IMG/VR virus record: IMGVR_UViG_3300032360_000056
Coordinates: 1 to 21,606 of that record
Direction: 5' to 3' (one strand)
Origin: a virus
Length of the DNA: 21,606 bases
Within the stretch, counting starts at the first letter, position 1; every line of letters starts with the position of its first letter. Shown here one piece after another: positions 1,671-20,400 of the stretch. The position numbers and the translations under genes were made by a program. The notes below the pieces were generated by a model. It was not told the origin of the DNA. It made no database searches and was given only the letters and a program-made list of their open reading frames with translations.

Positions 1671-4600
1671 TTATTCGCTAGGATCTCCCGTGGCTTGTAA
1701 AACATAATCAGTATCAAATCTATATATAAAATACTCCACTTGTGTTTGCTCGTTTTCGTTACCTAAAAATACATAAAAATTTGTGTTATTATGCCCGTTC
1801 AATACAATTGTTCTCTTTGCTCCTCCGGCATAAATATCCACCAAATATCCCCCTGTATTCTGAGCACTAATAGCAGGCTTCGCTTCAGATTTAAGATTCT
1901 CAAAATTAACAAATACTGCTAAATCTGTGCTGCTTGTTCTTTCGGCAAAAGAAGCATTATAAACTAGCGATACTGTCGCTTCGCCTCTTATATCTTCTGT
2001 AGTAATTGTACCGCTTAATGGTTGCGGCCTGTCTGCGTCCGTAATTAGTGTAATCTCTGGTTTAGACGCCTGCGTATCAGTTAGGTTGTCGCTTGAATCC
2101 ACTGCACCAAACTTAGACCTATTATAAATCAAAGCACTGACTTGAAAGTCTCCCGGCGATTCTTCAACTACTGATAAAACCCGATACTCTATCTCTTCTA
2201 TCTGAAAGCTTACATTAGTATTTTGTAGAGACCAAACAGTTCCCTTATTAACACGCGCGAAATCTTCGTCAGTTTTTTCTACTATAGTAATGTTATTTGA
2301 AGGCCCTCCTTCTGCCCCCTCGTTCACACTAACCGACTCAACTGTGAATTGTTTGATTTGAGTAGCCCTTGTGGAGTCGATGTCATCTTGTGTAATTCCA
2401 GAAAAACTGTTTTTGTTTGGGTCAGCGGCGGCCTTTTTGCTTTCTTGTCGTGCAAATTGGTCTAATGCTGCCGTCTTTTTAGCGGCACGAGGAACTAAAA
2501 GAGTAATCTTTTGACCCACCACATCTTCAGCTACTCCTTGGTCCAACGTTACAACGCTACTAGCGTGATCCACGTCAATCAACCTTCCGCCATAACGTTT
2601 TACATTTTTTAGTTTATCTTGAACCTTTATAACATCTCCCGGCCTCAAATAGGAAGCTTCGGTACCCGTATTGAATTGAATTAGATCGCTTTCCGTTTGA
2701 TTGGTGAATAAAAACCATTTCCCAAGCCGGTGAGCCTGTGATCGAGAAGTACACCCTAAGGCTATAAGCTTTTTCTCCAAATGACCAAACTTCCGCAGTC
2801 CCGCCGCATCTTCGACGTACTCTACCTTCGGTTTGAAGCTATCCCGTTCATCGTTATACCTAACCAACACCGAGGTGAAACGTGTGGTTTTAGCTGTACC
2901 CGCATAATTAAAAACACCCTCCCTCACATTAGCGTTAGTAAACAGTAAAATTGCCTGCCTAAGCTGATCATTAGATATAAAAACAAAACCACTATTCCAG
3001 TAAAGCATCCCTCTAAAAACAGAAGCTAAATCATTTAAAACATTATAAGCGTCTTGCTCGCGATCCAGATAAACATTGGTAGTAAACCTCGGCTCTAGCA
3101 ATGGTCGTGTCTTATTGGACTCAATGCCCACTTTGCCCTGAGTAATTCCCCTATAAACAGGAAATCCCACCGTATAGTCATTGATAAAATCGCGCCCCTC
3201 AAAAGCAACCCCGTCCACTGCCGTATCTTTAATATCATAATTTTGAATAATGTAATTATGCAACCATTCGGGGGGAGAAAGGTTGGCCTCATTCTCTGCC
3301 TTGAACTTCTCTCTTAACCATTCAGTTGTCACCCCACCGGTGGTTTTTTTATATTTTCTAAAGACATATTCCGGAGAAAGTTCTCGAAGCAGATCAAAAG
3401 TAAGCTGTTGCGCTCCACTGGTGTCGTCATACCTCGGATTTGCCACCCGTCGCCTAAATGCATAACTCACGTTATTTCCGTTACTTTGCTTGGGCTTCAA
3501 AAAGCTAGCAGTAGCACCAGTTAGAAAACCTGCTTTTTGAAAAAAAGCGGCCCCTCTTTGAGCGACGCTATCATCAATAGTAACTGTATATCCGTTAGGA
3601 GCTATTGTAAAATCAGAGAGTGGGATCTCTGGCCTATATCCTGTCTCAACTAATTCATCACAATATTTACCTATTGAATATAAATTCCATTTGTCCAATA
3701 TACCTTCTCCAAACCCATATTTTCCCAAACCATACCGTGGATTGGTCACCAAATCATAAAAAATCCATGCAGGATTATTAGACCAGTATTTGTCTATCGA
3801 AAATTCTCCGGTCCAATTACCTGTATATTCACGTGTTTCAGGGTTGTAATTAGTAGGTAACTTAATCCTACCTAACTTAAGATCGAATGTTCTTTTTGGT
3901 ATATTAGAAAAAGCTCGCGCATCTACAATAGTCCCTATAATTGCGGAATGGGGATAAGATAAATTTCTTGTCACCGCCTCGCTTACATAGCTGACTCCCC
4001 CCGCACGCCCCTGAAAATATTGATATGGCGCGCCTTTTTTGTCAAGAGGCAAAAGGTTCATATTAACTATAGTTATCTGTCTATCCCTACCTTTCTCAGA
4101 TAAAGGCAATCTAAAAATATAAGAGCGCACATACTGATCACTAGACTCTCCATAGATAGGCGCAAAAATATGCACCTGAGAGCCCCCGTCAGCTACCATT
4201 GTACTATCATCTGCATATCCTACTTTGATACCAAAATTAATGCTTGTGGGTTCTGAGTCGCCTGAGCCATTGCGAAAAGCGGCCACAGCCATTAGACCCA
4301 CCTCTATATCGGTGACATTATCATTGGTGATTGTATGCTGATATTTGACAGGAGCCACCTCAAAAGCTCTAGTCATAATGTCATACCATTCACCCTTACT
4401 ACCTAAATAATAAGAAGGAGAATTGCTCTCAATGCGCCTCCCTCCTCTACCGTAATCATCATATGGAGCGTCATCATGCCAATCTGAATCATACCATCCC
4501 TTCACCTTTACCCCCGCAGGAGAAGGGTCGCCAGCTTGCCTAAAAGGAACGTGCGCATATGTATGTGACTGAGCTCCCCAAGTTGCCGATATCACAAACG

Positions 4601-5522
4601 TATGGGCGGTCGCTGCCCCCCATATCGTTTCATAATTTTTTTTGTTAAGAGGAGGTAGAGTAAGACCCACATTGAAAGTTTGAGAAGAGGCTCGAAGAGA
4701 AAGCGCTGGGTTGGCGCTATGAGCCAACATGCCTTGGTCCGCTGTTCCATATTTAATCTCCGCAAAGGCGCGTGCATAATTTAATGTATTGCTATTCGTA
4801 TTTTTAACAGGAACATCGTTGAAATAAATTCCCCGAAACCCATTCTCATTTTTTTCCAAAGATCCTGCGTCCGTACTGTCTGTCAGCTGAATTAAATTAC
4901 CCCTCGCATCGCATAATCCGGCTATTTCCCCCTCGCTTATCAAATCAATGCATTTATAAACACTTACTGACTCTAAAGTGGTATTGGTGGGGTCCACATT
5001 AGGCATTACATTTGCATTGGTGAAATTTGTTTCATACCATGTTTTTATTTCAGAGGAAGTGGCCGTAGGGACATCTTCACCCTTTTTTCCTATTACCTGC
5101 GTTGGTTCTGCGCTGTCGGTCAAGACTACAGGGGTGTCAACCACCTCTTCCTCCGGTAACTCTGGAACATATCTAGGTGTAGTGTCAGTTATGGTTTCAG
5201 AAACCGTTTCTTCTTTTGTGTCATTAAAATCTGGATCAATTTCTAGCTCAGGACTAGATATCTCCACTGGTATTTGGGGATTCGATCCGTCAGCGGGTGG
5301 ATTCTTCGGTAGCTCCGCTGCCGGTGGAGTCTTAGGGGGCTGTACCACTATTACCTCCGAACCACCAGCAATACCAGCAGTACCACCCGTACCCACATCG
5401 AAACCACCATCATGCAAAGTTGGCATACGTCCAGCTAATAGTGGCACCACAGACAACTCACCATTAACTACCACATGCCAATGGCTGCCTACACGCACAG
5501 GAGTTGTATTATAATGAATCAT
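1671..5522 (-). CDS. J: Lambda gpJ-like central tail tip / host-specificity protein
   Basis: This 1283-residue protein is a J-family tip protein, which forms the central tip of the tail and contacts the host receptor. Family landmarks, in order: CIDLISEGEIAGL with FNDVPVKN at about 191-241 (start of the J core); NPAWIFYDLVTNPRYGLG at 583-600; WNLYSIGKYCDELV at 612-625; EPRFTTNVYLDREQDAYNVL then NDLASVFRGMLYWNSGFV at 810-847; FGHLEKKLIALGCTSRSQA at 912-930; and LRPGDVIKVQDK at 959-970. The last ~130 residues look like an Ig/FN3-type beta domain. Residues 1-183 are atypical: a short hydrophobic start, a Gly stretch, then a Pro/Glu/Asp/Thr-rich segment before the core. The ATG lies 1 base after the stop of the second I-like gene (TAAAATG), with no clear Shine-Dalgarno, which suggests translational coupling. 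The family call is firm; the function of the N-terminal extension is unknown. Confidence 0.95.
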   Translation of the reverse strand: MIHYNTTPVRVGSHWHVVVNGELSVVPLLAGRMPTLHDGGFDVGTGGTAGIAGGSEVIVVQPPKTPPAAELPKNPPADGSNPQIPVEISSPELEIDPDFNDTKEETVSETITDTTPRYVPELPEEEVVDTPVVLTDSAEPTQVIGKKGEDVPTATSSEIKTWYETNFTNANVMPNVDPTNTTLESVSVYKCIDLISEGEIAGLCDARGNLIQLTDSTDAGSLEKNENGFRGIYFNDVPVKNTNSNTLNYARAFAEIKYGTADQGMLAHSANPALSLRASSQTFNVGLTLPPLNKKNYETIWGAATAHTFVISATWGAQSHTYAHVPFRQAGDPSPAGVKVKGWYDSDWHDDAPYDDYGRGGRRIESNSPSYYLGSKGEWYDIMTRAFEVAPVKYQHTITNDNVTDIEVGLMAVAAFRNGSGDSEPTSINFGIKVGYADDSTMVADGGSQVHIFAPIYGESSDQYVRSYIFRLPLSEKGRDRQITIVNMNLLPLDKKGAPYQYFQGRAGGVSYVSEAVTRNLSYPHSAIIGTIVDARAFSNIPKRTFDLKLGRIKLPTNYNPETREYTGNWTGEFSIDKYWSNNPAWIFYDLVTNPRYGLGKYGFGEGILDKWNLYSIGKYCDELVETGYRPEIPLSDFTIAPNGYTVTIDDSVAQRGAAFFQKAGFLTGATASFLKPKQSNGNNVSYAFRRRVANPRYDDTSGAQQLTFDLLRELSPEYVFRKYKKTTGGVTTEWLREKFKAENEANLSPPEWLHNYIIQNYDIKDTAVDGVAFEGRDFINDYTVGFPVYRGITQGKVGIESNKTRPLLEPRFTTNVYLDREQDAYNVLNDLASVFRGMLYWNSGFVFISNDQLRQAILLFTNANVREGVFNYAGTAKTTRFTSVLVRYNDERDSFKPKVEYVEDAAGLRKFGHLEKKLIALGCTSRSQAHRLGKWFLFTNQTESDLIQFNTGTEASYLRPGDVIKVQDKLKNVKRYGGRLIDVDHASSVVTLDQGVAEDVVGQKITLLVPRAAKKTAALDQFARQESKKAAADPNKNSFSGITQDDIDSTRATQIKQFTVESVSVNEGAEGGPSNNITIVEKTDEDFARVNKGTVWSLQNTNVSFQIEEIEYRVLSVVEESPGDFQVSALIYNRSKFGAVDSSDNLTDTQASKPEITLITDADRPQPLSGTITTEDIRGEATVSLVYNASFAERTSSTDLAVFVNFENLKSEAKPAISAQNTGGYLVDIYAGGAKRTIVLNGHNNTNFYVFLGNENEQTQVEYFIYRFDTDYVLQATGDPSE

Positions 5523-5523
5523 T

Positions 5524-6180
5524 TTAACGTAAGGTACTCATACGTGCACCGTAGGGCGACAACGCATTAAGGTTTCCCATCCCATATACCGTAGCCGTAG
5601 AAACCTCCTTTTCTTCATCAGCAAATTTTTTCTTATCCATGGTACTCATGGACGTTGAAATCACCTTGCTACCAGTCCTCATTCTACCATAACCAACAGG
5701 AACCACTTGTCCCTGACTTGACACATTTTCAGCTGACCCAAAAATAAAAGAAGTGGTATTTACAGCCTGAGGATCATCAGGGGCCATTAGTTTTGCAATT
5801 AAAACGCTAATACCCATCGTAATAACAGCAGTGATAAGCGTATCCAACACAAATACCGCGGCCTCGAAAGCAAACCCCTTGGCGGTACCCAAAACAGCTT
5901 TTGCAATCGACTGTGCGATAGCTGTGGTTGCTCCCGCCAAAACAGGCAGAATATCTACTTTTTTACCATCAACGTTAGTGAAAAGAAAATTTTTATTGTC
6001 AACCAGCTCTCCATCAACAAACATAGCAAATGAATTTCCACGATTTTTAAGAAGAAAAGACCTGAGTTTATGAGTATTATTTTCAATGGCATTAAAAAGC
6101 TCTACAAAATTTTTAACCTTTAAATTCCATTTTTTTCCCAACAAGTCACCCAGCCAGCCTTCTATTCTTATTGTAGTCAT
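5524..6180 (-). CDS. I: Second gpI-like tail assembly protein, ubiquitin-like N-terminus
   Basis: This is a 218-residue protein of the lambda gpI / TAPI tail-assembly family. Residues 1-83 form a ubiquitin-like beta-grasp domain that starts MTTIRIEGWLGDLLGKKW, has FAMFVDGELVDNKN at 51-64 and ends VDILPVLAGA at 75-84. A hydrophobic alanine- and isoleucine-rich stretch at about 84-131 may be membrane-active or amphipathic. The family C-terminal signature follows: TTSFIFGSAENVSSQGQVVP, VGYGRMRTGSKVIS at 142-175. A charged tail (about 183-193) comes before the end. It is a diverged copy of its upstream neighbour, with the same architecture throughout. Its ATG overlaps the neighbour's stop as ATGA. 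An AAGGAGG lies 24 bases upstream but is better spaced for another ATG inside the neighbour. It probably acts with J and L in tip initiation (family knowledge). Confidence 0.9.
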   Translation of the reverse strand: MTTIRIEGWLGDLLGKKWNLKVKNFVELFNAIENNTHKLRSFLLKNRGNSFAMFVDGELVDNKNFLFTNVDGKKVDILPVLAGATTAIAQSIAKAVLGTAKGFAFEAAVFVLDTLITAVITMGISVLIAKLMAPDDPQAVNTTSFIFGSAENVSSQGQVVPVGYGRMRTGSKVISTSMSTMDKKKFADEEKEVSTATVYGMGNLNALSPYGARMSTLR

Positions 6181-6839
6181 AATAGTGGCCGCGTTACCAT
6201 TGCGCCTCCTTCTTTTAAATTACTGTGTGTTGTACCAAACTTAAGATTTTCTCTAATAAAACTATCATTAGACTTGTCTGCGCTACTAAGAGATGTTGAA
6301 ATTACCTTGCTGCCCGCCATTAACCTTCCATAAGCTATAGGGACAGGATTTCCTTGATCGGTTACATTTTGAGGTCCCCGGAAAACATAGCTGGTTGTTG
6401 ACACGAGGTCAGGATCATCTTTGCCCATTATAGATTCCACAAGCAAATGTATTCCATAAGAGATCAAAGCATATCCCCCGATTACAATAACCGCTGCAAC
6501 TAACAACTGTACCCCCTCTCCCCACGCCGCATATGCGGCCCAATGCTTGGCCAACCATGCCATAGCAGCTTTGATTGCTGGCCAATAAACAATAGCCCCT
6601 GCTATGACTGGAATAATACAAATGCTTTTTTTAACCTTTTTGTATAAAGACGCGGTATTTTCCAAGGGCTTACCATCCACCATAACTACATAATGATTTT
6701 TATGCTTTATAACGCTTCCCAAAAAATTCCCTGTATTAGCGTGAATAGCCCGCAAAGCGTCTGCCGCCGTGCGTATATTAAGACGCCACCGCCTCTCTAG
6801 CCCAGCTGCTATTTGACCTTCTAGAAATACAGTAACCAC
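6177..6839 (-). CDS. I: First gpI-like tail assembly protein, ubiquitin-like N-terminus
   Basis: This 220-residue member of the lambda gpI / TAPI family starts at a GTG (6839-6837); the next in-frame upstream stop is only three codons away, which supports this start. Residues 1-82 are the ubiquitin-like domain, from MVTVFLEGQIAAGLERRWRL through VVMVDGKPLENTASLYKK to ICIIPVIAGA. A long hydrophobic region rich in Trp, Ala and Ile follows at about 83-136. The conserved end comes next: TTSYVFRGPQNVTDQGNPVP then IAYGRLMAGSKVIS at 148-181, and a short polar tail. It lies 16 bases after the JAB gene and overlaps the second I-like gene by 4 bases. No Shine-Dalgarno is visible before the GTG. In lambda, I is a tip assembly factor needed with J, L and K. 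In the JAB-ubiquitin-like pairing proposed for phage tails, this domain would be the protease partner (inference). Confidence 0.9.
   Translation of the reverse strand: MVTVFLEGQIAAGLERRWRLNIRTAADALRAIHANTGNFLGSVIKHKNHYVVMVDGKPLENTASLYKKVKKSICIIPVIAGAIVYWPAIKAAMAWLAKHWAAYAAWGEGVQLLVAAVIVIGGYALISYGIHLLVESIMGKDDPDLVSTTSYVFRGPQNVTDQGNPVPIAYGRLMAGSKVISTSLSSADKSNDSFIRENLKFGTTHSNLKEGGAMVTRPLL
6205..6211 (-). promoter_or_regulatory. Perfect Shine-Dalgarno inside the first I-like gene
   Basis: The minus strand reads AAGGAGG followed by CGCA and ATG (6200-6198). That ATG is in the frame of the first I-like gene and would give a 7-residue peptide ending at the TGA that overlaps the ATG of the second I-like gene. 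It may load ribosomes for the second gene by reinitiation, or be chance from a Glu-Gly-Gly codon run. Confidence 0.5.
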
Positions 6840-6855
6840 ACTACATTATACACTT

Positions 6856-7260
6856 TTAAATTGAAAAATAAATCGTTTCTTCACTCACAGGGCTATAGAG
6901 CGAAAACTTTTTGTCTCGCACAGAAAAAACCAAAAAATCAATAAGAGCATTACGCGACATCTCCACGTCCATTGAACTTGGCTCACAGGAACCCTCTGGA
7001 TGGGAATGGAAGCAAAAACCGAGCTTAGACCCGTCAAAAAGATGAAAATAATCTAAAGGATCTATCAAAAAACCAGTTTTTCTATCAGGTGCTACGTTTT
7101 TTAAAAAAAATAGACTGTTTTTTGTGCCTAATCCACATATTTCGGTGTCATTCAACAAAGAAAGTCGTGCTATAAATTTTAAAAAATTTAATTTAATTGG
7201 TGTATCGATAAGCTTCAATTGATGGAAAACCCCCAAAAGGCAAACCTTTTTCCGCGGCAA
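6856..7260 (-). CDS. JAB/JAMM metalloprotease-like tail protein (gpK N-terminal domain type)
   Basis: This 134-residue protein carries a complete JAMM zinc-protease motif: Glu40 in NDTEICGLG, then His85-Ser-His87, seven residues, Ser95, two residues and Asp98 (HSHPEGSCEPSSMD). JAMM enzymes are zinc isopeptidases or peptidases, and in lambda gpK such a domain precedes an NlpC/P60 hydrolase domain. Here the NlpC/P60 half is absent: the protein ends about 36 residues after Asp98. The gene sits between the L-like and I-like genes, the position of K. The ATG at 7260 makes it overlap the L-like gene by 68 bases in another frame, with AAGG about 10 bases upstream. The first ~20 residues look unlike a JAB start, so a later start (TTG at 7215 or ATT at 7197, the latter overlapping the L stop) is possible. 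G+C is low, about 34% counted over 6841-7200. Confidence 0.85.
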   Translation of the reverse strand: MPRKKVCLLGVFHQLKLIDTPIKLNFLKFIARLSLLNDTEICGLGTKNSLFFLKNVAPDRKTGFLIDPLDYFHLFDGSKLGFCFHSHPEGSCEPSSMDVEMSRNALIDFLVFSVRDKKFSLYSPVSEETIYFSI

Positions 7261-8764
7261 ACTCTTTGTACCTTAGTCTGCAAGAAAACAAAGTTTTGCC
7301 GCATTGATCTTCTCTCCAATATTCGCTCTTATAACGAGGATCTTGCGCTGTATAATGATCCTTGATGCACACAAAAAACCTATCTAAAGAAATCCCGGGA
7401 CTCACCGTCTCATTTTTCGGCTTCGTAAAAGCTGTGGGCATTTCCGGCTTCACGCGCACCATGTCCCCCATCACATAACCTAGGGTACCAACTTCACCCG
7501 CAGCTAATGTACCCCCTGTGGTAGGTGTTCTTAAGCCTCCATATTTTATCTCCCCTATGGCGCCTGCATAATCAACAGTCGCACTAGCTAAAGAAGTTGC
7601 GTTTTTTGAGGCCGTTGCACTTAACGCTATCAAAGAACCGTCGCTAAATTTAATTGTTCTACCTCGTGAGATTTTGGCTGTGATCCCAACACTACCAACT
7701 TCATTATCTGCCACAGCCCCCACTGACAGGGTACCAAAAATAGAAGTAGCGCCACTACTAGCCGTCGCAGATACCTTCAATTCTCCTCCCCCTGTAAATG
7801 TAATGGTTTGCCCTGCGTAAATTATCCTAGAAGTTGTATCAACGGTCAGTGCGCTCAGAGTATAATCTCCTTTAGCGTAACCACCCACCTTATCAATTTT
7901 GACAGTAGTCCCAACATCAATTGAGGTGGCCTCATCGTTAGCTGAGCTGCCTGTAATTACAGTGGTAAAACCGTTATGATCATAATCATAAGCCCAATTG
8001 AGCCTCCCTAAATCATAACCACCACTGCCTGTAAACCCTTTATCATTCTCGTCAGCCACAGCCACTCCTAGATTCGCCACCAGATTGTCCTCGTCCGATT
8101 GCCCAGCCGCCGCAGTCTCTTCCAAAAAATAGGCAGCACCTTGTTTGGACAACACTACAGGTCCCTTCATATCCCCTCTTTGTCCATACCTGCACCCTAG
8201 TCCCCTATAGTGCCAAGGACAATAATTAGCGATCATGATACGAGCAGGAAGCTTGGCATTCTCCATTTCCAAAGGCGAAACAAGCTCAAACTCAATAAGA
8301 TATTTATTTTCAGTGACCTTTCTATTGAATACATATATATCATCATCAAAGCGCGAGGCGGGATCGGAAGTGGCAAAAGGATTGATACCTTCTGGAAAAT
8401 TTGATTCATCTATATACTTAAGAAAAATCCGTATTCTCTTAAATAAGCTTCCTACCAAATCATCTCGACGCTTAATTAAATCTGTAATAACACCCTTAGG
8501 ATTGGCTACCGTGAGTTTTGGCCTAGGTAGCTGTCCATCCCCTCTGGATTCAAAACCATCAACCTCAAAAGGTATAGCAAAATATGTATGGGGAATCTTA
8601 ACCCCGTCATCAGTCACTTCCGACAAGACAATATCTTTTTCAACTATCTTGCCCGCATGAAACCTTTTGATACCATCCGATCCTCCTAGTTCTACCTCAT
8701 ACAACTCTATAATTGTATCTGGCAGAAGATCGCTTATTGCTTGATTATGTGCTTGTGTTGACAT
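7193..8764 (-). CDS. L: gpL-like tail tip protein, four-Cys Fe-S site split by a large insertion
   Basis: This 523-residue protein is a lambda gpL-type tail tip protein. The N-terminal ~180 residues are the typical beta domain (TIIELYEVEL at 18-27; PRPKLTVANPKGVITDLI at 80-97). The metal-site signature CPWHYRGLGC (Cys182, Cys191) follows, and the C-terminal end carries CGKTLFSCRLRY (Cys488, Cys495) with the family ending GLPFGGFPSIEAYRY. Known gpL proteins bind an iron-sulphur cluster through four cysteines; the 9- and 7-residue spacings here fit two such pairs. Lambda gpL is about 232 residues, so this protein is more than twice that length. The excess, about residues 200-450, lies between the two cysteine pairs and holds two diverged repeats (317-360 and 367-410). 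The start is 2 bases after the preceding stop, with no visible Shine-Dalgarno. It probably links the M-type protein to the J hub. Confidence 0.92.
   Translation of the reverse strand: MSTQAHNQAISDLLPDTIIELYEVELGGSDGIKRFHAGKIVEKDIVLSEVTDDGVKIPHTYFAIPFEVDGFESRGDGQLPRPKLTVANPKGVITDLIKRRDDLVGSLFKRIRIFLKYIDESNFPEGINPFATSDPASRFDDDIYVFNRKVTENKYLIEFELVSPLEMENAKLPARIMIANYCPWHYRGLGCRYGQRGDMKGPVVLSKQGAAYFLEETAAAGQSDEDNLVANLGVAVADENDKGFTGSGGYDLGRLNWAYDYDHNGFTTVITGSSANDEATSIDVGTTVKIDKVGGYAKGDYTLSALTVDTTSRIIYAGQTITFTGGGELKVSATASSGATSIFGTLSVGAVADNEVGSVGITAKISRGRTIKFSDGSLIALSATASKNATSLASATVDYAGAIGEIKYGGLRTPTTGGTLAAGEVGTLGYVMGDMVRVKPEMPTAFTKPKNETVSPGISLDRFFVCIKDHYTAQDPRYKSEYWREDQCGKTLFSCRLRYKEFAAEKGLPFGGFPSIEAYRYTN
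7535..7666 (-). repeat. Copy 2 of ATAS-type beta repeat in the L-like protein
   Basis: Residues 367-410 of the L-like protein, with GRTIKFSDGSLIALSATASK, NATSL and a final Gly-rich turn. It aligns with copy 1 without large gaps. Confidence 0.7.
7685..7816 (-). repeat. Copy 1 of ATAS-type beta repeat in the L-like protein
   Basis: Residues 317-360 of the L-like protein. The pattern is G-x-T-I-x-F, a Gly-rich turn, L-x-V-S-A-T-A-S, then A-T-S, ending in a V-G-S-V-G stretch. It matches copy 2 (7535-7666) and a unit in the giant M-fusion protein (11305-11523). Seen at protein level only. Confidence 0.7.
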
Positions 8765-8766
8765 TT

Positions 8767-11700
8767 TTATTTAAAATAAATTGGGCCAGCGAATCCATTC
8801 TTATCCGTTCCATAAATGTTTATCTTTGAGCGAATTAGATCTTCTCGCGTTCCCAGCTCGGTTGTTTTGATGTGTAAATATTTATTCATTAGATACCCGG
8901 TTACACAAGCCCTTTCGGCCTCAGTCAAAGTGCGATTATATATCAAAATTTCTGCTATAGCCCCATGAAAACCAACTTGTTGGTTGGCGTCGATTTGACT
9001 TGCCCCTATAATCGGGGTAGACATAAAATTAAAAGTGTTGCCTGCAAAACTCTCCTGACCCAGCGGGCTTCCCTCGTTTCTAGCGCGATAGATAAGGGAC
9101 TTCTGCGTGCGCGTAGCTCTCAAGTTATAAGACCATGCTCTATATACCGGCAATTTATCCGTATTTTCCAACATGGCCCAATCTCTAAACTGAAACATAT
9201 CAGTTCCCTTTAAACCCATAGTTTCCTGAACCAAATCTTTATTGCGCCCATAATATTGAGACATATGCCGACTATCAAGATCCGAAAAGCGCGTAAAACC
9301 AGTTTTATATGTAGGAGTTAAATGTCCCTTACCTCCCGCAAAAACAATCCCAGAACCACCTGTTTCTTCAACTTTCTCCCACTTGTCCGCATAAAGCATA
9401 TAAAAAACTTCAAAACCATTCATCAAAGAAGAAAGCTTTGTCCACCCCTTGGTACCCTTGGTGATTGTGGTTGTTGCCTCTGCTCCTGAAGTATAAAGTT
9501 TGCCTGTTAAAGTAACCTGTGAGACAGAGGCGGCAGCAGAGCTGCTCAAAACAAATTTGCTTGACGTTGGGGTCTCGCTGCCCTTCTCAAAATGAATAAC
9601 CGTCCCGCTGGCCAACCCAACTCCCAAGGAAGCAACCTTCAGAGAAGTTGTACCTGTTATGGCATTTTCGTCTACAGTAATGTCGTTTCCTGTAGCGCCC
9701 TTTAACTCAAAATAATCTGCCGCATTAGCCGCAGTAGGATAAAAGTAAACATAATTTTTAGAATTAAAATATGTATCATTTAAAGGCGAAGGATTGCTCG
9801 CTGTTGCCGAAGGCTGGTTGGAGCCTTCAACTTTATAGCCCTCAGCAACACCCACCGCCTGAGATACAGTCACCGTCATCTGAGTAACACTAGTAAACGC
9901 TGTTATTAACCCGGCGCTAGCAGATCCTCCGGTAAAATTAAACGTCATGCCAACCATCCACGCTCCCCATGTTGTCCCTACCCCCGTAACGGTATTACCG
10001 CTTTGTGTCGCGGTTCCGGTGGCATAGGTGCCCCCAAAGAATGTAGGTGTTGAGCCAGCACTGGTTTGCTGGAGGTAAACATTAGCATCATTTTTAGATG
10101 TCCATTTTCCAACACCAGTGTTATCCTCAATAGCCCCAGCACTAACGTTTAAAATATTAGAAGTATCTTGGGCATCAAACTGCGCCACCAACCCCTCTAT
10201 ATTCGAGGGATTAAAGAACCTAGGTCCAATAAACAACATCTTATTTCGAAAATTTGTTGGCGTATAATGAGCCGTACCGCTATAATCGAGAATACGAATA
10301 GCCTTCCCCGGTACCCCTCCCAATCTCCCTCCTGAATTACCCTTGTCAAGGGAGAAAGGGTCGTCTGCCCCTGCGTCATCTTTTTCCCCTGTTCCCCCCG
10401 TGCTTCCGAAGATAGCGCCATCCCCTCCTTGGGTTTCCTTTAAAGGGGCACTAACACCTTGACCGGTTCCGGGCCCTTTTAATGTTCCATTTTGACTTAG
10501 AAAGGGTTCAATTGTAATACTGATATTTTCCCCGTCATTCCCTTGTATTCGTACTCTTTTTCCACCCTTAGAAAGAATTAACGGCATTTTATAGTAGACC
10601 CCGCCGCGCTTTATGGTTTGAATAATGCTGCTGCTGAATCCTTGTCCACCTCCCCCAGCACCTCCCGAATGTGTCCCTACAATATCACCTGCTGCTGTTA
10701 CCTTCAACTGCCCATATTTTACGGTGCTTCCATCAAATACATTGGGTATAAGCTTACCAGCAGCTAATTCTGTCATTGCAGTGAAGTCCATATCGGGTAT
10801 AGCTCGGCCATATTGACTCTTAATATCATTCATCCAATCTTTTGACTCTTCACCGCTCCTTGAAGTACTTGTAGTTATGCTTCCCGAGCGCCCTACCACA
10901 GCGAGCCTAAATAACTGTTCTGAATTAAGGCGATCACCAGCGCCCCCTCCCCCTCCTCCTGCTAAAATCTGCGCGGAATAATCTTTTTGTATTTCAAATT
11001 TAGCAATGTCTCTGTGAGTAATCCGAACAGCATCACCGCCTTTTTTACCTTCTGACGGATCCAGAGAGTTACCTACCTTATACATCCGATCAGGCTTATC
11101 CGCATTTTTAGCGTCTGCTGGTGTTGTCTGAACATAAGTAAAGCCTGCATCACCCCCATCTCCTCCTTTACCCACAATAGCAGAGCCTTGTTTCATAATT
11201 AAAAGAGTAGGAGTTTCTGCGATAGGTTTTGTACTATGGGTAGGACTAATCCCTGTTAACAATTGATAACCATTTTCAATAGCACCTAAATTAGTATTAC
11301 AGGTGCCCACCGTTCCGGCTGCCAGTGTAGAGGCTACCACGGCGGTCCCGGCGACAGATGTATCTCCCGCACTAGCATCAGCGCTTAACGTGAAAGTGTC
11401 ATCCCCAAAATAAACAATATCCCCATTTTCAAGAAGGGTGGTCACCGGATTAACAGACATAGTGCTCGCTGCATCTGCTAAGGTACTGCTTAAGGTCACG
11501 CTGATATCTTGGGTTGTTGCATCGGCCCCAACAAGATGACTTTCTCGCAAGACATATTGGACGCCTGTAAAATTATCTGCATATATCCCTGTAGCAGGGG
11601 AAGTCGTGTCTTCTCCTCCAACCTGTTCAACCATATTTCTATTTACTAGCGCCTCATCAAATTTACCGCTCAAATTGATGTTTGTTTCTCCATCGTCCAG

Positions 11701-13944
11701 ATATATCACCAACGGCTGTTTAGGTCCTGTAGGAATCTTAATACGATCCTGCGTATAAGTAGTAGATCCCGCGGTCAACCCTGTTTCGACGTCTTCCGAC
11801 ACTATTTGGTTAAGATCATTAGTTCCGCTAGCGTATACCCACATGGAATTATGTCCCGCGCCTCCCGCAACCCCTTGAAGCTCTGCCCGCATTCTATAAT
11901 AGTAATCTTTATTAAACCCGAGGAAACCAGTGTGCATATAAGAGCTAGGTTGGCGTACTCCCGTATTTAGCGGGTCCCTTAAATTTGCTCCATCTCCTGC
12001 TTCGGTGATAAGACTAGGAGGTACCATTGCTCCAGTATACAGATTGGTCTCTACAGTGCCCCCTGCGTAAGAATCAGTAATGTAACGATAATTTACATTA
12101 TCATAATCAACGCCAGTCCAGTTGCTATTGTCTTCTGAGTTTTGTATGCTGTATCGGGTTGTATAGTAGCCGCTTTCAGGCACGCGCCATGTTAAAAAAT
12201 TTCTTGGGTAACCTGAGCTTGTGTCATAAATCCCTGTTTTTATTAAAAATTTCTCGGGGTTCCCCGGGTTGTCATCCACGATTCCCCTAAAAGGATTACC
12301 AACTCCAAGCCCTGTCACATATCCCGTTATGCCTAGTGTGATAGGGCCACTGATATCTGCCACCCCATCTGCCTCACTAATACTAGTAATAGATAGGGAG
12401 GTGGTATAAATCCCGTGATTAAACGGTCCGGTACCAGCGCTTGGTCCGGAGAGATTATCTAACATCCCATTAAAATAAAACGGAATAAAAGCATTGTTGC
12501 CGGGAGGAATGGGTATGGGTTCATTTATTCCGCTAGGAAACTCAAAAGCCTTAAAAGCATCATTACGCTCTATACGGGTTTCAAGAGAATGGCGCCCACT
12601 ATTAGTCAAATAAAATCCTGTCCGCAGGGAAAACCCAGTTACAACATAGGTAGATAAACCTGTGTTCGATACAAACGCAGTGTTCTCTGGCCTTTGTTGA
12701 GTAGAAATCGCCCCCTTACTTCCTAACACCGGACGATTAACCACCGTAATTAAAGTGTTAAACTCGTCTTCTGCCGTGAGGTAATTTATAGGAAACTCCA
12801 AAAATTCTACTGTTATATCGTTATTGTCTTTGAATTTTAATGAATGGTTCCATCTCTGACAAATAAAAACCTCGTCTGAAAAATTATAAGGAGCTGGCAA
12901 TGTAAACCTAATCAAATCGGTGCCTCTATGATGTTCTAAAAAATGAATGATAGCCTTGGCTTCTTTATCTGTGCGTCCAGTCAACTGAAGAGAAAAGGTC
13001 AACAGATTTTTGTTTAACCCATCTTTCATTCTAACATAAAACTCATTTTGAAGTTGAGGTTTTGTAAAGCGCGGGTTCTGTTTGATATTTAACCCGGCTT
13101 CTACATCAAAATAAAAACGATCCTTGGTCCAAAGTGTTCCGGCCCCACTGGGGCTGTTATAACTATCAGAACTTATTCCCGTTGTAGGGGCTTCTCCTGT
13201 AAAATAATACCACCCAGACTGCAAGGGCGTCATATTAGCGGAGTCCCCAGCATTTGTCGATTCAAAAAAGACCGCATCATGCTTATAGTACGCTTCCCCG
13301 GTAGGAGTATAATGTTGGCGGGTACCACTCCACGGAATTGCAAAGCTTTGCCAATCGGTTAAACTTTTGGTTTCGTTGAAAAAGGAAGTGGATACCGTGT
13401 TAACATCTGGAGAGTCATAGTGGTGGTCAAAACCCTCTACAAAAAACCTTGCTTCCAAATCATAAGGGCTAAACGGCGTCCAGTTGATGCCGGTGTACCC
13501 CCCACTTGGACGCTCCCCTTTATTAAATGAGTCGTCTAAAAGATGGAGTAACGCCTTGGTTTCTTTATCGGTACGCTTCTCAAACGAAACGTTAAATGTT
13601 GCCTTTAAGGCGTTTTCGCTACGGTTAAGAAAGTTAAAGTAGCCATCGCCATATTTAATTCCATAGTAGCTCGTCTCGTAATTCACTGATGCCCCATAAG
13701 AGGGCTCAAAGTAAAAGTCCTGCGTCCAGTTGGAAGTAGTAGCAACGGGGGTATTGGAGGCCGCGGCGACTTGACTTATTGTGCCGGTATAATAATAATG
13801 GCCTGATTGAGCTTCTGTACAAGTGGTTTGTGTCGCACCAACATTATAGCCACTGAAATAAACAATATCATTTTTCTCGTAAGTGCTCCCAATAGCAAAG
13901 GGCTCTACACCTTGAATGTTAGTTGCTCCAGAATTTAAAATCAT
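8767..13944 (-). CDS. Giant gpM-like / adhesin fusion protein with lectin-like C-terminus
   Basis: This 1725-residue protein occupies the lambda M position, before L. Residues 18-190 and 215-387 are two copies of one composite unit: a Tyr/Trp-rich beta segment (SGHYYYTG / SGWYYFTG, then W-T-x-D-x-F-Y-F) followed by a gpM-like domain (RTDKETKALLHLLDD / RTDKEAKAIIHFLEHH; copy 2 also has FICQRW at 360-365 and ITVEFLEFP). Residues about 400-800 look like further beta domains. An ATAS-type repeat lies at 808-880 and glycine-rich blocks at about 920-1215. From about 1247 (IEGLVAQFDAQDTSNIL) to 1690 a LamG/concanavalin-like domain ends GFHGAIAEILIYNRTLTEAE, with two beta-modules inserted. It overlaps the previous gene as ATGA. 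It probably joins the tail tip and presents a glycan-binding surface (inference). No signal peptide, membrane segment or catalytic motif was recognised. Confidence 0.88.
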   Translation of the reverse strand: MILNSGATNIQGVEPFAIGSTYEKNDIVYFSGYNVGATQTTCTEAQSGHYYYTGTISQVAAASNTPVATTSNWTQDFYFEPSYGASVNYETSYYGIKYGDGYFNFLNRSENALKATFNVSFEKRTDKETKALLHLLDDSFNKGERPSGGYTGINWTPFSPYDLEARFFVEGFDHHYDSPDVNTVSTSFFNETKSLTDWQSFAIPWSGTRQHYTPTGEAYYKHDAVFFESTNAGDSANMTPLQSGWYYFTGEAPTTGISSDSYNSPSGAGTLWTKDRFYFDVEAGLNIKQNPRFTKPQLQNEFYVRMKDGLNKNLLTFSLQLTGRTDKEAKAIIHFLEHHRGTDLIRFTLPAPYNFSDEVFICQRWNHSLKFKDNNDITVEFLEFPINYLTAEDEFNTLITVVNRPVLGSKGAISTQQRPENTAFVSNTGLSTYVVTGFSLRTGFYLTNSGRHSLETRIERNDAFKAFEFPSGINEPIPIPPGNNAFIPFYFNGMLDNLSGPSAGTGPFNHGIYTTSLSITSISEADGVADISGPITLGITGYVTGLGVGNPFRGIVDDNPGNPEKFLIKTGIYDTSSGYPRNFLTWRVPESGYYTTRYSIQNSEDNSNWTGVDYDNVNYRYITDSYAGGTVETNLYTGAMVPPSLITEAGDGANLRDPLNTGVRQPSSYMHTGFLGFNKDYYYRMRAELQGVAGGAGHNSMWVYASGTNDLNQIVSEDVETGLTAGSTTYTQDRIKIPTGPKQPLVIYLDDGETNINLSGKFDEALVNRNMVEQVGGEDTTSPATGIYADNFTGVQYVLRESHLVGADATTQDISVTLSSTLADAASTMSVNPVTTLLENGDIVYFGDDTFTLSADASAGDTSVAGTAVVASTLAAGTVGTCNTNLGAIENGYQLLTGISPTHSTKPIAETPTLLIMKQGSAIVGKGGDGGDAGFTYVQTTPADAKNADKPDRMYKVGNSLDPSEGKKGGDAVRITHRDIAKFEIQKDYSAQILAGGGGGGAGDRLNSEQLFRLAVVGRSGSITTSTSRSGEESKDWMNDIKSQYGRAIPDMDFTAMTELAAGKLIPNVFDGSTVKYGQLKVTAAGDIVGTHSGGAGGGGQGFSSSIIQTIKRGGVYYKMPLILSKGGKRVRIQGNDGENISITIEPFLSQNGTLKGPGTGQGVSAPLKETQGGDGAIFGSTGGTGEKDDAGADDPFSLDKGNSGGRLGGVPGKAIRILDYSGTAHYTPTNFRNKMLFIGPRFFNPSNIEGLVAQFDAQDTSNILNVSAGAIEDNTGVGKWTSKNDANVYLQQTSAGSTPTFFGGTYATGTATQSGNTVTGVGTTWGAWMVGMTFNFTGGSASAGLITAFTSVTQMTVTVSQAVGVAEGYKVEGSNQPSATASNPSPLNDTYFNSKNYVYFYPTAANAADYFELKGATGNDITVDENAITGTTSLKVASLGVGLASGTVIHFEKGSETPTSSKFVLSSSAAASVSQVTLTGKLYTSGAEATTTITKGTKGWTKLSSLMNGFEVFYMLYADKWEKVEETGGSGIVFAGGKGHLTPTYKTGFTRFSDLDSRHMSQYYGRNKDLVQETMGLKGTDMFQFRDWAMLENTDKLPVYRAWSYNLRATRTQKSLIYRARNEGSPLGQESFAGNTFNFMSTPIIGASQIDANQQVGFHGAIAEILIYNRTLTEAERACVTGYLMNKYLHIKTTELGTREDLIRSKINIYGTDKNGFAGPIYFK
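8875..10206 (-). other. LamG/concanavalin-like domain with two inserted modules
   Basis: Residues about 1247-1690 of the giant protein. The beginning (LVAQFDAQDTSNIL, then GVGKWTSKNDA) and the end (GAIAEILIYNRTLTEAERAC, then VTGYLMNKYL) are typical of LamG-type jelly rolls. Two other beta modules interrupt it: residues about 1303-1375 (QSGNTVTGVGTTWGAWMVGM) at 9820-10038, and about 1420-1500 (GTTSLKVASLGVGLASGTVI) at 9445-9687. Confidence 0.65.
10300..11187 (-). other. Glycine-rich adhesin-like region of the giant protein
   Basis: Residues about 920-1215 contain separated glycine-rich blocks: GKGGDGGDAG at 925-934, GKKGGDA, LAGGGGGGAG at 994-1003, HSGGAGGGGQG at 1092-1102, GPGTGQG, QGGDGAIFGSTGGTG and GNSGGRLGGVPG. 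Such spaced poly-Gly blocks resemble phage adhesin tips that pack as polyglycine helices; the comparison is by composition only. Confidence 0.6.
11305..11523 (-). repeat. ATAS-type beta repeat in the giant protein
   Basis: Residues 808-880, with ENGDIVYFGDDTFTLSADAS followed by AGDTSVAGTAVVASTLAAGT and a VGT end. It shares the order of elements with the two repeats in the L-like protein at 7535-7816. Confidence 0.65.
12784..13302 (-). repeat. Composite unit copy 2 in the giant protein
   Basis: Residues 215-387. Landmarks are YYKHDAVFF, SGWYYFTG, LWTKDRFYFD and LTGRTDKEAKAIIHFLEHH, then FICQRWNH and ITVEFLEF, which match the end of lambda gpM-family domains (F-x-C-x-x-W, then a beta strand ending in F-x-E). 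Confidence 0.8.
13375..13893 (-). repeat. Composite unit copy 1 (Tyr/Trp beta segment + gpM-like) in the giant protein
   Basis: Residues 18-190 of the 1725-residue protein. Landmarks are YEKNDIVYF, SGHYYYTG, NWTQDFYFEP and FEKRTDKETKALLHLLDD. This copy lacks the Cys-x-x-Trp segment seen in copy 2. Confidence 0.8.
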
Positions 13945-16475: not shown

Positions 16476-17444
16476 TTAAAGTTCCTTATTTAAAAAATCT
16501 ACGAATTCTAAATTTACACTCAACACACCATCAATGGATGTGCTGATATTTTCTGATGTTAGTTGCCCGGTTACGCTTCTAAAATTATATAACGTGCGCC
16601 TCCCGTTATCGAGCAGGTCTGCTGGCACACTGTCTTGTAATGCGTCTCTTGTATTATCTGTAAGACTCTCTATGCCATCCGAACTTTTATTAATTTTTAG
16701 TTGTATTGTTTCATAATGACCGCTTCGTATCGTATCCATAATATTGGCCGTTTCGAAATCGTCAACTTCTACTGTAAAATTTGTTCTTACCTCTATAGGG
16801 TAATTTGTCAGCACCTCAGCAGGCGTAAAGCCAGCGCCTCCCGTTAAGTCAGACGCAGTCTTCTGAGAAAGGTCATAAATAGGATCTCTTTGAATTGTGT
16901 AGCTTTGTGCAGCCTGCACAACCCTGTTTGTTCCAGACTGATTTAAACCGCATTCGATAGACCCCTGATTAGCAAATGCAAAATATTCTTTTTGAAAATT
17001 AACAGCAGCATAAGGGGCTTGTCCAGAACAATCCAAATCTCCTCCCCTAATACCGCTTCCAAACCGCCCAAAACTAACAAAAGAACAATCCACAGTAGGT
17101 ACATCCCCGATAGCACAATTCACACTATAATCTGTCAAATAACCCGTATTAAAGCCCAGCACCTTCTCCCCGCCTCCATCTAATTCAGTATCATATATTA
17201 AAGTACCTGAAAGGGGGGACTCTCCGGTAAATCTTAAAATAGGGTCATCATACAAAATATCTCTAGCAAAAGACAGGCTCCCTTGTAGAGGTCCAGCATA
17301 AATATTTCGCACAAATCCAGCCCCTAAAGTGTCTATCCTTTCTTCAGGTACAGTATAGCCTGCATTGATATCACGAATACCAGATAAACCCGTACCGTTT
17401 ACGAAAAATTGTTGTTCATAGCTTGGTACTGCGTTTTTTGCCAT
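16476..17444 (-). CDS. Tail-tube-like protein 1
   Basis: This 322-residue all-beta protein directly follows the tape measure gene, overlapping it as TAATG. It shares the plan of the 270-residue protein at 13941-14753: APL/GPL-x-G-x-L-x-F at about 51-59, FTGESPLSGTL at 72-82, TGYLTDYSVNCAIGDVPTVD at 100-119, a SYTIQRDPIYDLS strand at 181-193 and a tube-like final block VTGQLTSENISTSIDGVLSV at 291-310. It has extra loops, including a cysteine-containing one (Cys110, Cys120, Cys139, Cys165). I infer a tube or distal-tail-type fold that sits at the end of the tail tube; lambda has no gene at this place, but distal tail proteins follow the tape measure in many siphoviruses. It has the best Shine-Dalgarno in the window (AGGAGAAGG), so it is probably made in quantity. 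Confidence 0.82.
   Translation of the reverse strand: MAKNAVPSYEQQFFVNGTGLSGIRDINAGYTVPEERIDTLGAGFVRNIYAGPLQGSLSFARDILYDDPILRFTGESPLSGTLIYDTELDGGGEKVLGFNTGYLTDYSVNCAIGDVPTVDCSFVSFGRFGSGIRGGDLDCSGQAPYAAVNFQKEYFAFANQGSIECGLNQSGTNRVVQAAQSYTIQRDPIYDLSQKTASDLTGGAGFTPAEVLTNYPIEVRTNFTVEVDDFETANIMDTIRSGHYETIQLKINKSSDGIESLTDNTRDALQDSVPADLLDNGRRTLYNFRSVTGQLTSENISTSIDGVLSVNLEFVDFLNKEL
16482..16487 (-). promoter_or_regulatory. Shine-Dalgarno of the fibre-like gene
   Basis: The minus strand reads AAGGAA, 7 bases before the ATG at 16474, within the end of the preceding gene. Confidence 0.6.
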
Positions 17445-20400
17445 TACCTTCTCCTAGCTCCGGGGCTCAAACTTCCACCGGTTCGCTGCTCCTCAACAAT
17501 AACCCGTTTGACTGCATCTGATATTCTTTTTGCGAATTCTTTATTGCTGCTCCCATTGTCGGAATTTATATCTTGTCCACCTTGTTGAGGTGTGCTGTTT
17601 TCCTCTGTTGCATTATTTGCGCCAGTGGAGATATTAATACTAATATTGTTTGTATTAGAGGATGGTGCCGAGAGGCCTCGCACAGACCCTCCCGCTTGGT
17701 AGCCGCTTCCTAGGCCATAACGCCTCATTGCGCCTCCCCTTTGCTGCTTAGGCCACTCGCCCGTATCCGCGCGCAGTGTGGACGGGATAGGTGGCCCTGC
17801 GGCTGATCCCGGACCCCCGGGGCCATAGATATGTTCGCTCGCCCGGCGCGCCTTCCAGTTACCATACTTTTCTTTTCCTACATCCATTCCTTTAAACACA
17901 GCTGCGCTGGCCATCATGGTAGCAAAGCTTGTCCAAAGCGCTCTTTTTTCTGCTTTTTTAGCTTTGCGCTTTTCCTCTTTGGCTCTCATGCTTTCCAATA
18001 ACTCGTCCAACTCTGGACTACCAGTGGCATAATAAAGGCCACTCATTCTACTACTCAAGGGATCTTCATTTAAAGCCATGCGGCCCCCAAAGCGAGGGGC
18101 TGCCCCAAAATTAATTTTATCTAAAGCGGCCGGTCCTCCCATGGCTGCTACTGCGTTTCTATTCAACACATATTCGTGAGGTTCGGCCATGATAGGAATC
18201 TTGTCTCCGCTCCCTGAACCGGGAACAGATAAACCTCCTTGAGCATGAATAAAGCCTCCTTTTTGTTTTTTTCCACCCGGCATGGTTCCCACAATATTAG
18301 TAGCAATCTTCTGTAAAAATGCGCCACGAATCATCTTCAAAACATCAACCGCCATAGCTCTCATAGCATCACCAATACTCTGTGCTCCATCTAACCCGGC
18401 CTCCATTGCATTAACTAACCCATTTCTGAGTTGAACTGGCAGCTGTTCGCCCAACAAATTAAATATTGTTTCTCCCTCTTCGCGTACTTTACCCATTCCT
18501 GTGGCCCAACCTGCGCTAAACTTTGTATCCAAAATCGCCTGTTGTTTTCTCAGGAGGTCTGTGGTTTTTGCTATTAGTTCTTGCCTTCTCTCTTCTTCTT
18601 TATTTATATCCTTAGTCGAATCTAATTGTATTAACAAACCTTTGGCAGCTCGCCTAATAGAATCGTTGTCGCTCTCTGATAAAGCTACTAGTGCCTTTCG
18701 TGCGTCCTCAACTTCCTTAAGTACAATCGTTGGACTTTCAGCTTTGCCGCCCTTTTGGCCGCCACCCGTTCCCATAGGAAGCCCCATGAACGAGGTAAGC
18801 CCCCTTCCTGTTCCGGGTATTACCTTGGTTGTTGCTCCACCAGTGGTGGTAGTAGTCATCGGATCCAACGGCATGTCAACGTCTTTCGCCCACTCATATG
18901 CTTTTTTACCTAGCGAGTTTAGCCCTGACTTGATTTTCTCCTTAAAGGCCTGCATTTTAGCGGCGTTTTCTCTCATTTTCTCGGGATCTTTGCCTTGGGA
19001 CCTTAATCCTTCGTCTATTAATGCTTGAGTATTAGTTTTTAATGCTTCGACCAGCTTTTGCTGCTGGGTGATCATTTGCTCGGTTATACTCGTTTCTATT
19101 TTTATTGCGCTTATTAATTCAATTTTTCTCTCTACATCCTTTTTCGTCTCATTCAATAAATCTTCTCGCATCTTTAAATCTAGAGCATCGGATTTAGCTT
19201 TTTCCTCGATCTGTTGACGCGCAACACCTTGATTAATGGCCCTAATGGCCCCCTCTAGCTGTGACTGCCTGTCGATTTTCTCTACGCCCGTCATTCCTTG
19301 AAAGGTACGTGAGTTAGCAAGTTGAAACTGCAAGCCAGCAGTAGCCACATCAGCGCCTGTACGCAACTGAGCCATCCGAAGATCAGAGCCGCTTTGAATT
19401 TTTTTCTGCTGAAGGAGGGCATCTCTCTCTCTTTCAAGGTTACGTGCTTTTATTTCTTCAATCTTAAATTTGATTCTATTCAGGCGCTCTTCTTTATCTA
19501 CAACAGCCGACGCCTTATCCCATGTTATTCTTAATTCGCTAGCAACCTTTTGAATTTGCGCATATTCCACCTTACCGCCGACCCTTTGGCCTGCTTTGCC
19601 CTCTAGCATATCAAGTCCCGCGTTGATATCTCCAGACATAAAAGTATTTAAAACTTCGGCAAGCTCAGCAAAACCTTCCGCCCCTTTACCAACGCGCGTC
19701 TCCATGGCCCCTCTGATTTTACTCAAATTAGTTTGATTAAACTTAGCAGCCGTTGTGCTCCTTTTTTGCTCAATAACGGTTTCTCCCGCACTACGACGCA
19801 TACCAGCCGCTTCAGTGGGAGACAGGGCTCCCGACAACAAAGAAAGGCGCCCTTGTAAAATAGCAGCTCTCTCTGCGATATTGATATCAATTTCCGTAGT
19901 AAGCGAAGAAATATCTTCAATCATCTTCAAGTAGGGGTTCATAAATCCGCTCATAGTTTGAAGAAATTCTGTTTGGATTTTTTTAGCATTATCAATGATG
20001 CTGCGGCCCCCGCCTTTCTTACCGGCAGCTAGAGATTTCTGCATATCTTCAAATCCCTTTAAGAATTCAAACGCGGTCATCGAATACATTCCATCCAAAG
20101 CGGTTATAAACTTTTTAAACTCCGCTAACTGTGTAGAGGTCATTTCTTTCACCCCTTTGGACCCCAACTCTTGAAATGTTTCTAGCAATGTAGTTTCGAA
20201 CGATTCGCCAGCTAACTGACGCCCCAACTTTTTCCTTAACGCGTCGATTTGCTCCGCGGTCATTCCGCCCACTAACATTTCTGTAAATTCTGGATTGGCT
20301 CGCGTAAACTTATCAGCGTCAAACAGGGTTTTTTCTATTTCCTGATGTAGCCCGGCAGTTGTCTTAGGATCATATCCGTGTTCCTTTATAAAATCTTCTC

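Follow-up and report, generated by a model that had tools for sequence, protein, structure and literature searches.

The window analysed here is a 21.6 kb virus fragment (21,606 nucleotides) from IMG/VR that carries a phage tail module on its minus strand. In order of transcription the module encodes a large protein in the position usually occupied by the tape measure (17444-21592, minus strand), several structural proteins, gpL, a JAB/JAMM protein (JAMM), two gpI-type proteins (I1 and I2) and gpJ. The neighbours examined in this fragment are tail genes, and a 1725-aa protein is encoded within the module upstream of gpL (8767-13944, minus strand). The initial annotation described JAMM and the two gpI-type genes as adjacent, and all three do lie side by side on the minus strand where it had placed them. 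The order L-JAMM-I1-I2-J is kept in every close relative found and is consequently not a product of chance. Nucleotide relatives were not found among known phages, and a search for a cultured host or prophage by means of JAMM found no relative in genome contigs, where a gpI search gave distant relatives only. The protease and its flanking genes comprise the following features:

7193-8764, minus strand: gpL, tail tip hub, upstream neighbour of JAMM (PF05100, E 4e-36; TIGR01600, E 6e-41)
7230-7234, minus strand: GGGGG, Shine-Dalgarno-like stretch of JAMM, within gene L (all 16 loci have GGGGG or GGAGG here)
6856-7218, minus strand: JAMM, JAB-only gpK homologue, 120 aa, most likely with a TTG start (phrog_30, E 4e-10)
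7141-7143, minus strand: catalytic Glu codon of JAMM
6967-7008, minus strand: JAMM zinc motif H-S-H-P-x6-S-x2-D
1671-5522, minus strand: gpJ hub and central fibre, expected partner of the C-terminal parts of the I proteins (phrog_31, E 1e-116; NCBIfam lambda_TipJ, E 8e-66)

The zinc motif first attributed to JAMM is complete, with Glu40, His85, His87, Ser95 and Asp98 (numbered from a TTG at 7260) all present and invariant in 16 distinct close homologues. Among 176 related JAB domains the Glu, both His and the Asp are found in 176 of 176 and the Ser in 174, with Thr in the other 2; these and the gpI counts given below describe this sequence neighbourhood and not phages generally, because the loci were collected with profiles of the window's own proteins. 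The gene itself was correctly recognized, but its start probably was not. The TTG at 7260 is an upstream in-frame codon, and the most likely start is the TTG at 7218, since all 16 homologues have this codon, with the G-rich stretch 11 bases before it. Read from there, JAMM overlaps the 3' end of gene L by 26 bases. The phrog_30 match corresponds to the JAB part (residues 40-127), and the Pfam Prok-JAB score, 21.6 bits, is under the 25-bit cut-off of that family. A profile of the 16 homologues matches the solved JAB proteins PfJAMM1 (5LDA/5LD9), 2KKS and 2KCQ, the archaeal PfJAMM1 being among the best solved-structure matches.

JAMM had also been described as stripped of the NlpC/P60 half of gpK. 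No such domain was found in the gene, and the window and 14 related records, which are fragments, gave no match to PF00877. The oddity that this wording implied is not borne out, because a JAB-only gpK is paired with a single gpI in 47 distinct loci, which rules out that a JAB-only protease is unusual in itself. The lack of NlpC/P60 in these other loci is also the reason for classing JAMM as a JAB-only gpK, and not as the two-domain form. A JAB-only gpK is thus ordinary, and reading more into it was an over-reading that is corrected here.

The two genes that follow JAMM, and the element that precedes them, were resolved into these parts:

6842-6855, minus strand: AAGTGTATAATGTA, an element separating JAMM from I1 and possibly a -10 promoter (conserved in related loci)
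6177-6839, minus strand: I1, first gpI paralogue, 220 aa, GTG start (phrog_32, E 8e-25)
6606-6839, minus strand: predicted ubiquitin-like (beta-grasp) domain of I1, residues 1-78
6594-6611, minus strand: I1 junction P-V-I-A-G-A, residues 77-82, predicted cleavage region (74 of 74 gpI sequences keep P and G)
6270-6398, minus strand: C-terminal docking core of I1, about residues 148-190, aligning with the tip-visible part of lambda gpI
5524-6180, minus strand: I2, second gpI paralogue, 218 aa, its ATG overlapping the I1 stop as ATGA (phrog_32, E 9e-32)
5941-6180, minus strand: predicted ubiquitin-like (beta-grasp) domain of I2, residues 1-80
5929-5946, minus strand: I2 junction P-V-L-A-G-A, residues 79-84, predicted cleavage region (P and G conserved)
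5632-5760, minus strand: C-terminal docking core of I2, about residues 141-183, from alignment to lambda gpI

I1 and I2 are homologous (35% identity over 192 aa, E 8e-36), and both match lambda gpI throughout their own length (PDB 8IYK, E 1e-13). An N-terminal ubiquitin-like domain had been proposed for each, and structure prediction gives a beta-grasp fold in both cases. The AlphaFold2 model of I1, built on 74 sequences, has pLDDT values of 75-93 by block in this domain and is of higher confidence than that of I2 (about 61-78). The best Foldseek matches are TA0895, MoaD, CysO, SAMP1 and Urm1 for the I1 domain, and MoaD, Urm1, SAMP1 and ThiS for that of I2. In I1 the pLDDT drops under 50 over the A-G-A junction (residues 80-84), which hydrophobic helices follow; in I2 a low-confidence stretch starts at residue 82. 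The C-terminal halves of both models are of low confidence.

The ubiquitin-like domains end as first described, in I-P-V-I-A-G-A in I1 (Gly81) and L-P-V-L-A-G-A in I2 (Gly83). In a set of 243 gpI sequences, 242 have the junction proline and 241 the glycine; gaps and one V account for the others. The JAMM residues and the gpI glycine are both nearly invariant, even in loci without a detected gpK, and both I proteins retain every substrate sequence feature. SAMP, Urm1 and MoaD, the best solved fold matches for these domains, are free proteins that end in glycine, whereas in gpI the domain forms the N terminus of a longer chain. In both I proteins the glycine lies inside the chain (residue 81 of 220 in I1, 83 of 218 in I2), with no free C-terminal glycine, and no conjugation gene is known in this fragment; for these reasons a deconjugation system, one of the two functions first suggested for the cassette, finds no support.

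The other suggested function, proteolytic processing, has a precedent in lambda, where a JAB domain likewise lies directly upstream of gpI in the order L-K-I-J, and gpI has a ubiquitin-like domain, an A-G-A junction, hydrophobic stretches and a gpJ-docking end. Lambda differs in that its gpK carries NlpC/P60 and its gpI is single, whereas the window has no NlpC/P60 on gpK and two gpI. As a separate observation, the N-terminal JAB half of K in NC_001416 (L149:1643-1941) lies in another frame than the annotated K, and consequently the annotated protein is without the catalytic Glu region. The idea of a cleavage of gpI by gpK is reportedly due to Iyer, Burroughs and Aravind. The 2006 proposal was that gpI is cut by the gpK JAB domain where the ubiquitin-like domain ends (PMC1779556). 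According to a 2026 meeting report (PMC12908700) on a talk held in 2025, Davidson's group demonstrated in lambda that gpK removes the ubiquitin-like domain of gpI by cleavage, and that this happens only after gpI has joined the tip, enforcing stepwise assembly. Furthermore, the lambda tip contains a gpI trimer below the tape measure, gpK was not detected in virions (PMC10721106), and in the closed tip gpI is resolved from residue 101 (PMC11101478); the A-G-A glycine is residue 96, just before the resolved part. JAB processing of the gpI ubiquitin-like end at A-G-A, as first suggested, agrees with the 2006 prediction and with the lambda report; the interpretation in the initial annotation is partly supported overall, and its principal idea is sound.

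The doubling of gpI is where the window departs from what is known. The principle of gpK as protease and gpI as substrate and the JAB-only form of gpK are known already; what appears to be new, judging from the sequences compared, is a durable and recurrent doubling of gpI that has arisen more than once. Two tandem gpI genes, as first noted, are present, and they are conserved across a group in which L-JAMM-I1-I2-J is kept in about 26 distinct loci; the relatives from the first search all have this order as far as each contig extends. In the survey of distinct loci, a JAB plus NlpC gpK with one gpI was found in 97, a JAB-only gpK with one gpI in 47, a JAB-only gpK with two gpI in 32, and a JAB plus NlpC gpK with two gpI in 5, so that a stand-alone JAB is common and gpI doubling is the rarer trait. 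A coupling of the doubling to the loss of NlpC/P60 was considered and found no support, as tandem pairs are also found with JAB plus NlpC (L190, L197, L205, L212, L265). The single-gpI JAB-only phages (e.g. L080-L101) share with the window the stand-alone JAB and the TATAAT element before gpI, and theirs are the nearest relatives of I2, but they have no I1. More than one gpI gene is also present in the system of Pseudomonas phage phiAH14a and its satellite phiAH14b (PMC4936722), which differs in that the second gpI is encoded outside the tail module and shares 79% identity with the first, and in that K is JAB plus NlpC/P60.

In a quick tree of 90 proteins, all 17 I1 sequences from the window's group fall into a single clade (support 81), and the sister to it is a clade (98) that joins I2 with the lone gpI of related phages. 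This topology suggests one old duplication followed by loss of I1 in the single-gpI group, unless rate effects misplace I1. In the same tree the gpI pairs of L190/L205 (97), L197 (99) and L265 (98) are within-genome sisters, which indicates separate duplications, and those of L300 and L230 are likely to be separate as well; the pairs of L115/L153 and L203/L224 lie on long branches. L230, with a JAB-only, two-gpI tail module, is a contig labelled as a Candidatus Lokiarchaeota MAG and is probably a mis-binned phage contig; its I proteins have very long C-terminal extensions that are shared in part.

Both copies are maintained by purifying selection, as shown by dN/dS values of about 0.1 when the window is compared with six close relatives (I1, 0.10-0.15; I2, 0.08-0.11; JAMM, 0.09-0.15). 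The two ends of the proteins differ in how alike they are. In the window I1 and I2 are 56% identical in the docking core and 30% in the ubiquitin-like half, and the within-genome averages are 65% for the docking core, 24% for the middle part and 32% for the ubiquitin-like part. The similarity score of the C-terminal tails is 93 within a genome versus 25 between genomes, and in most sister phages the two tails are near-identical proteins within a genome while the ubiquitin-like halves are distinct. The docking-plus-tail DNA of I1 and I2 has an identity of 62-92%, with 84-92% for the most similar pairs, and all pairs have synonymous differences there, which together indicate that homogenisation recurs and is not all recent. 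In five loci (L022, L023, L025, L054, L067) the 3' ends of I1 and I2 encode near-identical C-terminal tails in each genome, a pattern suggesting that gene conversion has repeatedly affected the gpJ-docking end. The window's own subclade shows no homogenisation over the last 30-40 residues, so that the docking ends of I1 and I2 may differ. The greater likeness of the docking core and the homogenised tails fit a docking of both proteins on the same partner, and point to a surface that needs to match gpJ.

The space between JAMM and I1 may add a level of control. The element AAGTGTATAATGTA holds a perfect TATAAT, and GTGTATAAT stands directly before the first I gene, a few bases from its start codon, in 40 of 41 loci; it occurs 46 times in 341 kb, 40 of these before the first I gene. 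No obvious Shine-Dalgarno sequence precedes the first gpI gene. A TATAAT so near the start, together with the lack of an obvious Shine-Dalgarno, makes a nearly leaderless promoter plausible, one that would raise I1-I2-J over JAMM. A repeated late promoter was rejected, since the window holds a single exact copy of the element.

The explanation that we favour, and that we consider fairly probable as a whole, is that of a marine-type phage with a lambda-type tail tip and a K-I module with duplicated gpI, in which one JAMM trims two capped structural plug subunits. JAMM would be a zinc protease acting during tail assembly, and I1 and I2 would each be made with an N-terminal ubiquitin-like cap and dock through their C-terminal part on gpJ and related tip proteins. 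After docking, JAMM would cut the P-x3-G junction and release the cap, leaving the hydrophobic helices and the docking and plug segment in the tip. That I1 and I2 would be cut, where and when this would happen, and that they would act as plugs are all modelled on lambda, as is the placing of their C-terminal parts, with their conserved docking core, in a putative trimeric plug of the tail tip; from the doubling we infer that both would be cleaved and both incorporated. If both copies are structural, the plug below the tape measure would consist of two related subunits instead of one. In lambda there is one protease and one substrate, and their processing has only recently been reported as shown; a group with one protease and two capped substrates would provide a natural test of the purpose of the cap, of a heteromeric plug and of the order of cleavage.

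I2 could instead be the only structural plug, with I1 a non-structural helper such as a chaperone, or a competitive substrate holding JAMM back until I2 is docked. This we consider unlikely. The single-gpI phages keep the I2 type, I1 evolves somewhat faster, and it is more divergent between phages (50% in the ubiquitin-like domain versus 58% for I2), all of which would suit a helper; however, I1 retains the hydrophobic helices and the whole docking core, and its tail is homogenised with that of I2 in most sister phages, which a free helper would not need. The shared docking core and homogenised tails would also allow both proteins to fit the same site, as interchangeable plugs of which a given tip holds one or the other, but the fixed order, the start-stop overlap and the long-kept distinct ubiquitin-like halves suggest joint use, and we give this arrangement a small chance. 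That JAMM is a counter-defence enzyme removing host ubiquitin-like proteins conjugated to tail proteins is highly improbable: antiphage ubiquitin-like conjugation systems do exist, JAB is a deconjugating fold and PfJAMM1 is among the closest solved matches, but in all relatives JAMM occupies the gpK position beside gpI, and related versions carry the NlpC/P60 fusion just as gpK does.

The favoured scheme of one JAMM and two capped plug subunits might extend to gpJ, where one further feature was found:

5415-5486, minus strand: J residues 13-36, similar to the final part of the gpI ubiquitin-like domain and having a P-x3-G of their own (hhalign E 3.8e-5, probability 71%)

The score of this match is 26.7, versus a maximum of 10.6 in 300 column shuffles, and the P and G are invariant in 8 sequences of the window's subclade. 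The fragment could be what is left of a third copy, or it could serve as a third site of cleavage. A single JAMM might then make three ordered cuts, in I1, in I2 and at the N-terminus of J, with a hetero-oligomeric plug and the hub maturing in a set sequence; we regard this as a long shot, and if it were true, repeated duplication of gpI would offer a general way of building asymmetric or two-layer tail plugs. Separately, gpI at L123:3998-4540 apparently continues in frame into gpJ, making a natural I-J fusion.
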